This document shows, in pieces, positions 42,779 through 47,085 of a stretch of DNA of 64,000 nt; position 1 is the first letter of the stretch; every line of letters begins with the position of its first letter. Under the pieces are notes generated by a model that was not told where the DNA came from, made no database searches, and saw only the letters and a program-made list of their open reading frames with translations. This DNA comes from Candidatus Peregrinibacteria bacterium CG10_big_fil_rev_8_21_14_0_10_55_24 (lineage in GTDB: Bacteria > Patescibacteriota > Gracilibacteria > Peribacterales > Peribacteraceae). The stretch covers positions 124,001 to 188,000 of the forward strand of contig PFDV01000003.1 of NCBI GenBank assembly GCA_002772745.1, read 5' to 3'. Both the position numbers and the translations under genes were made by a program.

Positions 42779-44668
42779 CTACTTCCCTATTGGCACGATG
42801 TGCTCCTGTCGCTGCTGCAGCCGCCCAAGGAAACGCTCCTCGGAATCGTCTCCCAGTAGTTCCAGTGCGCACGCCACGCTCATCTGAGAGACGAGCTGCG
42901 CCTTTCGAAGAGATGTGATTGTAGCGGCTTCGTGAGGGTTGTGGCTCAGGCCGTTATCTGCGGCAATGGTCATACTCACCTGTGTTCCCTCCGCAGGACT
43001 CTCCTTCGCTTTCGCCAGGGTATTGCTGTCGTGCCCGGGGAGAACCGAGGCCTTGATCACCGAGTACCCAAGACAAGCGGCGATTGCCGCCTTCCGTTCT
43101 GCAATCATCGCACTCACGGTTCCTGATGCAGTGCGCGAACGCTCGGTGCGGAACGCTGCGAATTCTTCACCTGCGAACCATCGGTCGAATACATGCTTCT
43201 GCACTTGTTGTGCGAAGCATTCTCTCAGACGCGTAAGATGCTCTGTATCCGTGAATCGAAAATCGAGCTTCATCGAAAAGCCATGTTCTGGGCTTAAGAC
43301 AAAATCCGTTCCGGTGCACGTGACGTCGTAGATTACGCGGTGGCCATCGGCAGCGTGCACATCGGTTTTTCGTGGTGCTCCTTCCATGCGGGCGGGGATG
43401 GAGAGCAGACCGATGGTGTGTTCCTTGGGAAGAGACCTATATGTTCCGGCAGGTGCCGGCGACAGAGTCCAGCGCATATCCAAATTGCGCGTGTCACGCA
43501 GCGTCGTTTGACATACTGCAAGTGCATCGCGTGCGAAACCATCGGCATCCGCCGATCGTATGAGGAGTCGGATGCGCTGCCTCCGTGGCACTTTCGTGTA
43601 CCCGGTTAGTGCATCGGGCTCCACGCTCAACACATGCACACCCCTGTTTCGGTCCCCCTTACCAAAGAGCACCTTACTGAGGATGTACGTTCCAACCAGA
43701 GCATCGTTGCGAAACCACGGTCCGCCCTCCGTCATCGTTTCGTCCCTATTGTGAATCGTGCCTGCGGTGTGTGCTTCTTCGCCGATGACTTCCACGTCAA
43801 TGATGGAGTACTGTCCTTCAGCGATTTCATGATTCCGGGCGTTAACGGTTTCAGGGGACATGACCAAGTCTTCCCTGATAGAGCCTCCGATACCGCCTGA
43901 TGCAATATGGACGTCGTTACCCGTTGTCTGCAGCAACTTTGCCTGTGCGATATGTCCTTCTTCCGCTGTGACGATGTTGCGTACTCCGCTCGTCAACGTG
44001 ATTTGGAGCATTCCCGTGCCATCATCTCGAATGATGGGGTTCTGCGCTTCGTCGAGGACGTCGTTCCACGTCCTGCCCGGTTGCGTGTAGCGACTCCAGT
44101 GATGTTGGAGCGTGCTCTCGTCACCATTCTTTCCGTACTGCATGGCGTTGAGTTTTGCTGGTGTCAGTTCTCCTGTGGCCACCGCACTGCCGACACATGC
44201 ACGACCGGTCATACTGGATTCCTCCGCGCGCCATACGGCCATAGTCAGGCTATGCCTCGTTTGCGCGCCAGTCTCTCTGCGGAACTGTGCGAGCTTAAGG
44301 AGCATGTCACGCGCGATGTTCACGCCCCATACGCCGTCGAGCGGCCCTCCGTCGGGTACGGAATCAATGTGTGAATGGTAGAGAACGGTGCTCTGCGCAT
44401 CCTGCCCGAAGTACGTAACGAAGAGATTCCCGACTGCATCGGTGTCGATGGCAAAATCCATACCCTCTCTCAGTCCCATGGTGGTGAGCTGTTCTCGCAT
44501 GTCTTGTTCGATGAATGCGAACGCGGCGTCTTCGGCTTCCGAGAACGCGAGGCAACTACGTCCTTTTGGAGGATGTGCCTCTGGCTGTGCCGGTCCGTTC
44601 ACATTGAATAGCGGATTCTCTACAAGAGGATCGACAATGCCGCCGTACGGTTTTGGAGATGCGTCCAT
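42779..44668 (-). CDS. M20-family metallohydrolase (N-carbamoyl/allantoate amidohydrolase-like)
   Basis: VLYHSHIDSVPDGGPLDGVWGV, AVWRAEESSMTGRACVGSAVATGEL, LPGHDSNTLA, SHNPHEA. Confidence 0.75.
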   Translation of the reverse strand: MDASPKPYGGIVDPLVENPLFNVNGPAQPEAHPPKGRSCLAFSEAEDAAFAFIEQDMREQLTTMGLREGMDFAIDTDAVGNLFVTYFGQDAQSTVLYHSHIDSVPDGGPLDGVWGVNIARDMLLKLAQFRRETGAQTRHSLTMAVWRAEESSMTGRACVGSAVATGELTPAKLNAMQYGKNGDESTLQHHWSRYTQPGRTWNDVLDEAQNPIIRDDGTGMLQITLTSGVRNIVTAEEGHIAQAKLLQTTGNDVHIASGGIGGSIREDLVMSPETVNARNHEIAEGQYSIIDVEVIGEEAHTAGTIHNRDETMTEGGPWFRNDALVGTYILSKVLFGKGDRNRGVHVLSVEPDALTGYTKVPRRQRIRLLIRSADADGFARDALAVCQTTLRDTRNLDMRWTLSPAPAGTYRSLPKEHTIGLLSIPARMEGAPRKTDVHAADGHRVIYDVTCTGTDFVLSPEHGFSMKLDFRFTDTEHLTRLRECFAQQVQKHVFDRWFAGEEFAAFRTERSRTASGTVSAMIAERKAAIAACLGYSVIKASVLPGHDSNTLAKAKESPAEGTQVSMTIAADNGLSHNPHEAATITSLRKAQLVSQMSVACALELLGDDSEERFLGRLQQRQEHIVPIGK

Positions 44669-44830
44669 ACAAATGGTAAAATACCTATAATATTAGATAT
44701 GTCAACTACAGTGTGTTCACCATTGGATGCTCAATACTGCCACCGAACTTCGTCCCAAAGATGACATTGGATGGCGGGCCGTGCTGAACGCTGTTCGAAC
44801 GTACGGGCAGGAAGTTATTGGTTGCCTAAC

Positions 44831-45238
44831 CTAGTCCTGATGCTTCTTCTTACTATGTGTTAGCCAGATCGAATGCTCTCGCGATATAAGCAGTTCACAT
44901 TTTTCAGCTAGCAGCTGGGCATTTCCACTCGTGTAGTCTCCTGCCTTAGAGAGGAATAACTCTTTTTCATGCTTTAACGTTTCGGCTGTGGTCCGGTAGT
45001 TTATCCAGTTCTCCTGTGGTTTCAGAAAACCATCCAGCGCTTCTATTAAGATAATACAGGTCCCGATCAGGCCAACAGTCCAGTGGGGCAGGTGTTCAAA
45101 ATAGCCGAGAAAAATTAACAGTGCGGAACAGAAGATGGTAACTATTCGAAACGCGTACAGCATACATTTATTAAAAGCACTTTTACGTTCGTACCATTTT
45201 ATTTCCGGCTCCAGTCTGTTCTGTAAATACTCACTCAT
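44831..45238 (-). CDS. SLATT/DUF4231-type two-TM protein (predicted membrane effector)
   Basis: YLQNRLEPEIKWYERKSAFNKCMLYAFRIVTIFCSALLIFLGY...QENWINYRTTAETLKHEKELFLSKAGDY; ATGA overlap with upstream TIR gene. Confidence 0.8.
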   Translation of the reverse strand: MSEYLQNRLEPEIKWYERKSAFNKCMLYAFRIVTIFCSALLIFLGYFEHLPHWTVGLIGTCIILIEALDGFLKPQENWINYRTTAETLKHEKELFLSKAGDYTSGNAQLLAEKCELLISREHSIWLTHSKKKHQD

Positions 45239-45720
45239 CGTTTGGTGAGGGAAGGGTATCCTAACTGTGTGTAAACACTGTCCTTATAGTGGTAGTTACC
45301 GTCTTCAAACATTTTGTAGTTTTCCAGCGAATACTTCACGATTGCCGGGGAAAAAGGTATAAAAATTGCACCGATACCTTCAAGCCAAGAAGGACATAGT
45401 GCATCGTGTTCTCGTGACCCATTCAGATTTACTCCGATCATGGTGCACCCTTTTTCTATTGCGGCTTCTGCTTCCCATCTGACGTACTTCCGCTTGAATC
45501 GGGTATTTTCTCCGATCAGCTGAATAAATTTCCCAGCCATGTTGATACGTTCTCTGCATTTCCGTTTAACGTAGTCCTCATTTTCTGAATTAACTACGTC
45601 CGGAAGCTGACAGTCTGTGAAGCTAAAATCGATATGCTCGTTGGTTTTCCATGCTTGCATTAAGCGGTAGTACTTAATGTCGGCACTGCTGAATCCGACA
45701 AACGTTCGGGGTAAACCCAT
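45235..45720 (-). CDS. ThsB-like TIR domain protein (DUF1863/MTH538 type)
   Basis: RTFVGFSSADIKYYRLMQAWK ... FIQLIGENTRFKRKYVRWEAEAAIEKGCTMIGVNLNG. Confidence 0.8.
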   Translation of the reverse strand: MGLPRTFVGFSSADIKYYRLMQAWKTNEHIDFSFTDCQLPDVVNSENEDYVKRKCRERINMAGKFIQLIGENTRFKRKYVRWEAEAAIEKGCTMIGVNLNGSREHDALCPSWLEGIGAIFIPFSPAIVKYSLENYKMFEDGNYHYKDSVYTQLGYPSLTKR

Positions 45721-45739
45721 AATTAATTGGGGGAAAGGA

Positions 45740-45973
45740 TTAATGCTTGGTGTCTCGCGGGGGACAGGGATCATTGCTGGGAGGCATCGTGTCGGAGTCG
45801 CGGAAGAGACAATCACGGCCCTGAATGCGTACTTCGCCGCCTCCGGTGTTCTTGCACGACTCTTTCGCCGCCGCCTCAGCATCGGATTGCTTGTCGAATA
45901 GACGGGCACGAACCGCTCTCTCTCGGAGAGCCGCCCACTGCGGGCCGCGTTTAGTGACGTAGTAGTTGACCAT
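45740..45973 (-). CDS. DUF2188-like protein
   Basis: NYYVTKRGPQWAALRERAVRARLFDKQSDAEAAAKESCKNTGGGEVRIQGRDCLFRDSDTMPPSNDPCPPRDTKH. Confidence 0.8.
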   Translation of the reverse strand: MVNYYVTKRGPQWAALRERAVRARLFDKQSDAEAAAKESCKNTGGGEVRIQGRDCLFRDSDTMPPSNDPCPPRDTKH

Positions 45974-46061
45974 GAAGAACGATTGGTAGGTGGTTACGGG
46001 GCTGGTCGGTCGGTGCTATTGGTCTGGAGATTTCTCCGCCTCAAGTACGACTCATCCTCGT

Positions 46062-46088
46062 TTAGCACTCCACATTATAGAGTGCTAA
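46062..46088 (-). promoter_or_regulatory. Perfect CIRCE element (HrcA operator)
   Basis: TTAGCACTC-CACATTATA-GAGTGCTAA, 9-bp arms and 9-nt spacer. Confidence 0.93.
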
Positions 46089-46101
46089 TCTTCGGTGTCA
46101 A
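46074..46101 (-). promoter_or_regulatory. Consensus sigma70-type promoter overlapping CIRCE
   Basis: Minus strand TTGACA-CCGAAGATTAGCACTC-TATAAT (16-nt spacer), reading toward DUF2188/TIR/SLATT. Confidence 0.8.
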
Positions 46102-46300
46102 CTACAGCTTGGGAAAGGCAAAAACATGTAAAGCGAAAACCAGTTATTGCTGGAATGGTTCTGTGTATTGGGAGCGAAAGAGCTCATCAGAAAGAATCGC
46201 AAGTTTCTTTCACGAATCGATGGCGGGGTTGACCCTTCGACTATGCTCAGGGTCAAGATGTCACTCTTGATTTCAAGACACTGTTTGACGCAGAGAATTC

Positions 46301-46377
46301 TGGCGGGGTTGACGGGACTTGAACCCGCGACCTTCCGCGTGACAGGCGGACGCTCTAACCAATTGAGCTACAACCCC
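46301..46377 (-). tRNA. tRNA-Asp (anticodon GTC), CCA encoded
   Basis: Reverse complement ggggttgtagctcaattggttagagcgtccgcctgtcacgcggaaggtcgcgggttcaagtcccgtcaaccccgcca. Confidence 0.95.
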
Positions 46378-46680
46378 GTGATGTGAATGATACAAGAGTG
46401 GTGACTCCGCTGTGCCCTTTTTATTACGCCGCTTCGCGGCTGGGCCAATTGAGCTACCCGCCCGTACCCGCCAGACCTGTCGGGCTGGCCGATCCGGTAC
46501 GGATCGGGCGGGCAACCCCTTATTAGGCTGCAAAACGGTACCTGAGCCCTGCGAATGGCGCAACGGAAATCAGGGGATAGCTCACAGGCCAAGAAGTGTG
46601 CGGTTTGCTCAAGCGGGAGCGCTGTTCTCCCGCGGAGTTGTTCCGTAGTATTCTCCTCACTTCCTTTCCCCTCCTCCTCT

Positions 46681-47085
46681 ATGCGGATGCCACTCTTCGC
46701 CGGTATCGCACACCGAATGCACGACAATCTCTACCTCCTCTTCCGCATCCTCGTTGGGTTCCTCTTCCTCCAGCATGGAGCGCAGAAGCTTGGCATCCTC
46801 GAAGGCGGTTTTGCCATGGAGGGCTTCATGGGCTTTATTGGGCTCTGTGAACTCGCCGGCGGCATCGCGCTCATCTTGGGCGTCTTCACGCGGCTCGTGG
46901 CGGTCCTGGGCACCATCCTCCTCATCGGCGCCTACACGACGGTGCACATGAAGGGCGGACTTTTGCCCATCGCAAATAAAGGAGAACTTGCGCTGCTCTA
47001 CGTCGCGACGTTCCTGGTCCTCTTCACCTTTGGCGCAGGCAAGGCGAGCCTCGAGCGAGCTCTCTTTAAGAAGGAGCTCTTCTAG
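46681..47085 (+). CDS. DoxX family membrane protein
   Basis: LYLLFRILVGFLFLQHGAQKLGIL ... GFIGLCELAGGIALILGVFTRLVAVLG. Confidence 0.88.
   Translation: MRMPLFAGIAHRMHDNLYLLFRILVGFLFLQHGAQKLGILEGGFAMEGFMGFIGLCELAGGIALILGVFTRLVAVLGTILLIGAYTTVHMKGGLLPIANKGELALLYVATFLVLFTFGAGKASLERALFKKELF

Follow-up and report, generated by a model that had tools for sequence, protein, structure and literature searches.

A candidate Thoeris-like TIR–SLATT module with a predicted HrcA/CIRCE promoter in a Peregrinibacteria genome

Introduction

The described systems closest to the locus reported here include those of the Thoeris family, in which a ThsB-type TIR protein is encoded with an effector, ThsA. Type I Thoeris combines ThsB with a SIR2–SLOG ThsA, and type II combines ThsB of subfamily 9, such as EcThsB2, with a TM-macro ThsA. 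An active-site Tyr in ThsB has been reported only together with TM-macro ThsA (PMC11204291). In staphylococcal ThsB2, mutation of a Glu (E81) or a Phe (F6), both of which have counterparts in the protein examined below, abolished defence (PMC12578639). SLATT proteins were predicted to be nucleotide-responsive pores in earlier comparative work (PMC7159879), and phage defence by DRT10 requires a SLATT protein (PMC12632851). A neighbourhood joining TIR and SLATT genes was described in firmicute phages in 2022 (PMC9503650).

Here we analyse a three-gene unit in a 64,000-nucleotide stretch (the window; contig PFDV01000003.1) of the 1.29-Mb genome of Candidatus Peregrinibacteria bacterium CG10_big_fil_rev_8_21_14_0_10_55_24. 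An original prediction had read these genes as a DUF2188/TIR/SLATT operon and a candidate uncharacterised defence system; given the 2022 publication, "uncharacterised" was an overstatement. The reading that we favour, with a probability of roughly 0.6, is a Thoeris-like abortive-infection module of two genes, acquired horizontally and placed under HrcA/CIRCE control, with DUF2188 as a passenger.

Results

The three predicted minus-strand genes at 44831–45973 were all found to be present and intact at the coordinates first given (Table 1). The operon layout is backed by their tight packing, with a gap of 19 nt between the DUF2188 and TIR genes and an ATGA overlap between the TIR and SLATT genes, and the family names DUF2188, ThsB-like TIR and SLATT (DUF4231) drew Pfam, PADLOC and NCBIfam matches far beyond chance. 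The lower GC content ascribed to the whole unit holds for the TIR (0.44) and SLATT (0.43) genes but not for DUF2188 (0.60), the flanks being at about 0.57. ATG at 45720 is the likely TIR start: the alignments with two close relatives start at M1, and the closest relative locus (L078, from another Peregrinibacteria genome) is similar in DNA from this codon on; GTG at 45909 was rejected as a start, since the relatives' alignments begin at 45720. The next gene on the minus strand (42779–44668) encodes a 629-amino acid protein with a weak Peptidase_M28 match, which is absent from 29 relatives searched, and has a promoter-like site of its own (TTGACA-16-TATTTT, 44705–44678). The promoter and CIRCE (46062–46101), the tRNA-Asp gene (46301–46377) and the 13-nt tRNA copy (46221–46233) had all been missing from the original prediction.

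Table 1. Positions of the genes and sequence elements of the TIR–SLATT locus in the window
Feature	Position	Strand	Details
SLATT_1 (DUF4231) two-TM membrane protein gene	44831..45238	-	135 aa; DUF4231 E=7e-18; NCBIfam SLATT_1 E=1e-29
ThsB-type TIR gene	45235..45720	-	161 aa; PF08937 ThsB_TIR E=9e-15; PADLOC ThsB E=1.6e-42
DUF2188 gene	45740..45973	-	77 aa, intact; PF09954 E=1e-9; PADLOC PDC-S16
Perfect CIRCE (HrcA operator), TTAGCACTC-N9-GAGTGCTAA	46062..46088	.	0 mismatches; overlaps -10 box
Sigma-70-type promoter, TTGACA (46101-46096), 16-nt spacer, TATAAT (46079-46074)	46074..46101	-	12/12 consensus bases; faces DUF2188-TIR-SLATT
tRNA-Asp 3' end, copy 2, GTCAACCCCGCCA	46221..46233	-	copy 1 at 46301-46313
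tRNA-Asp (GTC)	46301..46377	-	directly upstream of DUF2188-TIR-SLATT unit

The anticipated TIR fold was supported by an AlphaFold2 model of moderate confidence (pLDDT 79), whose best match among solved structures was EcThsB2 (E=3.6e-12, TM-score about 0.8). EcThsB2 (8v6t), from TM-macro (type II) Thoeris, was also the best PDB match by sequence (E=3.9e-21), and the C-terminal tail of the window TIR, GNYHYKDSVYTQLG, aligns with EcThsB2 and the macro-linked ThsBs, as in ThsB subfamily 9. The predicted active-site residues are a catalytic Glu83, the sole invariant column in 45 TIRs, and Phe7, which is shared by L078 and a Ureibacillus locus (L098) and replaced by Tyr in every macro-linked ThsB compared. 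In the TIR tree these three Phe-bearing proteins form one clade (support 100/99). Its sister clade (97/85) holds TIRs partnered with TM-macro ThsA or, in two cases, with a SLATT_3–SLATT_1 fusion. The proteins of both clades all keep the catalytic Glu, and the 14-row clade uniting the window TIR with the macro-linked ThsBs is supported at 100/99. Because defence by a staphylococcal ThsB2 depends on the corresponding Phe and Glu, the window TIR looks, by analogy, like an active cyclase-type enzyme. Counting against an NADase reading, no NADase activity was detectable for EcThsB2, its closest solved relative (PMC11204291). The Tyr-bearing ThsBs encoded at L012:3441–3950 (L012a) and L025:3986–4483 adjoin the SLATT_3–SLATT_1 fusions and are an apparent exception to the rule that this Tyr accompanies TM-macro ThsA (PMC11204291).

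For the SLATT protein, the two-TM fold that had been predicted was recovered in a confident four-helix model (mean pLDDT 92), with hydrophobic, putatively membrane-spanning segments at about residues 26–48 and 54–72; no solved structure resembled it at E<0.001. Conservation among 100 relatives is concentrated elsewhere: of the 18 columns conserved most strongly, 17 are found outside both hydrophobic segments. The SLATT tree pairs the window with L078 (100/99), and its resolution stops at that pair. Lacking a soluble ligand-binding domain, unlike type II ThsA with its macro domain, the protein offers a point against gating by a nucleotide. In four Saprospiraceae loci (L123, L133, L148 and L151) a 388-amino acid patatin-like phospholipase is encoded 3' of SLATT, another recurrent partner.

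The neighbourhood search for the proposed trio gave a divided answer, in that TIR–SLATT recurs but DUF2188 was in no other TIR–SLATT locus searched. In 48 of the 50 viral contigs that a SLATT alignment query retrieved, SLATT adjoins a ThsB-type TIR; the set includes many near-identical staphylococcal phages and is not independent. The window SLATT as a single-protein query gave no viral match. Among the best 80 genome loci, a same-strand TIR lies nearby in 31 (ThsB-type in 16) and an opposite-strand TIR in 21 more, and further pairs are carried on haloarchaeal and Neorhizobium plasmids. The custom HMMs were built from sequences found in the same analysis, so that their E-values rank matches and do not prove them. 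TIR and SLATT form a mobile and putatively functional pair. At L078, where the TIR is 77% and the SLATT 62–63% identical to the window proteins, the pair adjoins tRNA-Gln rather than tRNA-Asp, with a serine recombinase nearby. The presence of the pair at another tRNA, with similarity running from the TIR start codon, indicates that the pair is mobile. In 380 genomes of the phylum, full-length SLATT of the window kind was found in the window genome only, and full-length ThsB of the window group in one other genome (G232), there with TM-macro ThsA. The Ureibacillus locus (L098, 5774–7498), from another phylum, encodes a TIR 69% identical to that of the window and, downstream of it, a TPR-S (tetratricopeptide sensor) protein; SLATT is therefore not the only partner of this TIR clade. 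At three loci from other genomes of the window's phylum (L174:1486–2533, L176:1495–2536 and L175:1038–2508), a small TIR is accompanied by membrane proteins (146–212 amino acids) that have no Pfam match and are possibly further TIR-linked membrane effectors.

The same pairing could arise without a diffusible nucleotide, if an oligomerising TIR contacted SLATT directly and scaffolded it into a pore. Such contact would suit a SLATT_1 of only 135 amino acids with no sensor domain, conserved SLATT residues on the cytoplasmic side, where a partner could bind, and TIR and SLATT genes that, whichever comes first, overlap or directly adjoin each other at nearly every locus. We nevertheless regard it as unlikely: the catalytic Glu, needless for a pure scaffold, is invariant in SLATT-linked TIRs, and the unrelated partners of SLATT (patatin, SAVED and TPR-S proteins) fit a soluble signal better.

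The insertion history of the region was approached through its tRNA gene. The second copy of the 13-nt tRNA-Asp 3' end, 80 nt downstream from the first, is a possible integration scar; no further copy was found in the window, including downstream of SLATT. In 29 relatives with the matching tRNA, other genes lie downstream. Given the 13-nt copy and these different neighbours, the region between tRNA-Asp and the M28-like peptidase is probably an insertion, and the contrast in GC content suggests separate origins for DUF2188 and the TIR–SLATT pair. An ancestral heat-shock gene at this tRNA was rejected as a source of the operator, no CIRCE (up to 2 mismatches) being present 3' of the tRNA in the 29 relatives.

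DUF2188 might be a third component, needed as a sensor, inhibitor or antidote of TIR–SLATT, as had first been proposed. It shares the promoter across the 19-nt gap, no minus-strand promoter-like site was found between the DUF2188, TIR and SLATT genes, and PADLOC lists the family as a phage-defence candidate (PDC-S16). The trio was nevertheless rejected as a conserved unit, and a three-component system seems improbable, because DUF2188 is missing from L078 and from all other TIR–SLATT loci searched, differs in GC content from the pair, and is carried by 14 of 192 phylum genomes at loci that, outside the window, never adjoin TIR or SLATT. As it was found in no other TIR–SLATT locus, DUF2188 is probably a co-transcribed passenger. 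DUF2188 often lies near tRNA genes, at about 5 of 16 loci (L016, L166, L169, L171 and 45740–46377 of the window), with a rough binomial p of 3e-4 for which the background, 4%, was assumed rather than measured.

Apart from the promoter of the unit, 44400–46700 holds a single promoter-like site on the minus strand, which belongs to the M28-like gene next in line. The operator overlapping the promoter of the unit is rare by chance, the expectation for a CIRCE in the window being 0.01 at up to 3 mismatches; the whole genome holds 4 perfect and 4 weaker sites, against 1 match for a control pattern. The other annotated CIRCE sites of this genome sit before clpB, dnaK, groES, clpC and hrcA. HrcA itself is encoded (E=7.9e-23), and its gene is preceded by a CIRCE with 2 mismatches. 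In the relatives, CIRCE sites that have a -35 box are almost always found before dnaK, groES, clpB, clpP or clpC-type genes (the clpP and clpC-operon calls were made by eye, without a family search). One perfect CIRCE, at L191:1501–1527 (G000:C8:27813), has no clear heat-shock gene downstream. Because L078 has no CIRCE, heat control of the pair appears to be local and not ancestral. According to the titration model, HrcA is activated by free GroEL (PMC6032397), and derepression by non-native protein is therefore expected. From the operator we infer that HrcA binds at the TIR–SLATT promoter and that induction there couples expression to chaperone load. A promoter placed by its sequence in the chaperone regulon would also suit a membrane or cell-death device that is induced by stress and not directed at phage, in which heat shock derepresses TIR–SLATT and the module limits the growth of damaged cells. 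We give this little credence, as other TIR–SLATT pairs have no CIRCE and are carried by phages, satellites and plasmids, and as the heat control is local.

Discussion

In the Thoeris-like abortive-infection module that we favour, the ThsB-type TIR would sense an infection product, and Phe7 and Glu83 would turn NAD+ into an ADP-ribose-derived signal. The conserved cytoplasmic helices of SLATT, a predicted two-TM hairpin with both ends in the cytoplasm, would receive this signal; the protein would then oligomerise and make the inner membrane permeable, and the infection would end together with the cell. The HrcA/CIRCE promoter would raise the dose of the module once GroEL is occupied by non-native protein, whether from heat or from massive phage-protein synthesis. 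A more tentative extension, which we consider plausible without favouring it, makes HrcA, through its dependence on free GroEL, the first sensor of infection: phage proteins would titrate the chaperone, and the module dose would rise before the TIR is triggered. If true, this would be two-step immunity gated by the heat-shock response, and the chaperone regulon would have captured a TIR–SLATT module.

The unexpected feature of the locus is its regulation. No precedent linking HrcA with anti-phage defence was found, none being apparent from the titles, abstracts and term counts of the papers searched that mention both, and the predicted chaperone-linked control of TIR–SLATT looks new. The locus supplies a concrete, testable candidate for a connection of HrcA, the heat-shock repressor, with an immune module. 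At about 300 residues in total, this very small two-gene system also suits asking whether a TIR product gates SLATT, a long-predicted idea. Effectors have been swapped within one ThsB lineage, which is found with TM-macro proteins, a SLATT_3–SLATT_1 fusion, a single SLATT_1 or a TPR-S protein.

Compared with type II Thoeris, the locus shares a TIR of the ThsB type, in which both the catalytic Glu and the folded-back C-terminal tail are present, as well as a small two-gene layout with a membrane effector. It differs in having Phe7 in place of the active-site Tyr and SLATT_1 in place of TM-macro ThsA; no ThsA_Macro (PF20016) is present at the locus, and the genome gave no match in a search that was run without a working positive control. 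With type I Thoeris it shares the Phe/Glu active site of the cADPR-making ThsBs (PMC12578639), but the window TIR is far from type I ThsB in sequence and no SIR2–SLOG ThsA was found at the locus, where the neighbours are SLATT, DUF2188 and the M28-like peptidase. DRT10 likewise has a membrane SLATT as a required partner, its trigger enzyme being a reverse transcriptase and not a TIR. In a Neorhizobium locus (L012) and a viral contig (L025), a subfamily-9-like ThsB is again found with a SLATT effector replacing TM-macro ThsA, but there Tyr is retained in the TIR, and a double SLATT (SLATT_3–SLATT_1) of about 290–306 amino acids takes the effector position. In the phage TIR–SLATT neighbourhoods (PMC9503650), as in the window, a ThsB_TIR adjoins one SLATT_1/DUF4231 gene and the protein lengths are about equal, whereas the phage TIRs fall in other clades, have no subfamily-9 tail or CIRCE, and mostly follow the order SLATT–TIR. 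The TIR–SLATT pair is of a known kind, and the particular combination of TIR and SLATT in the window looks new.
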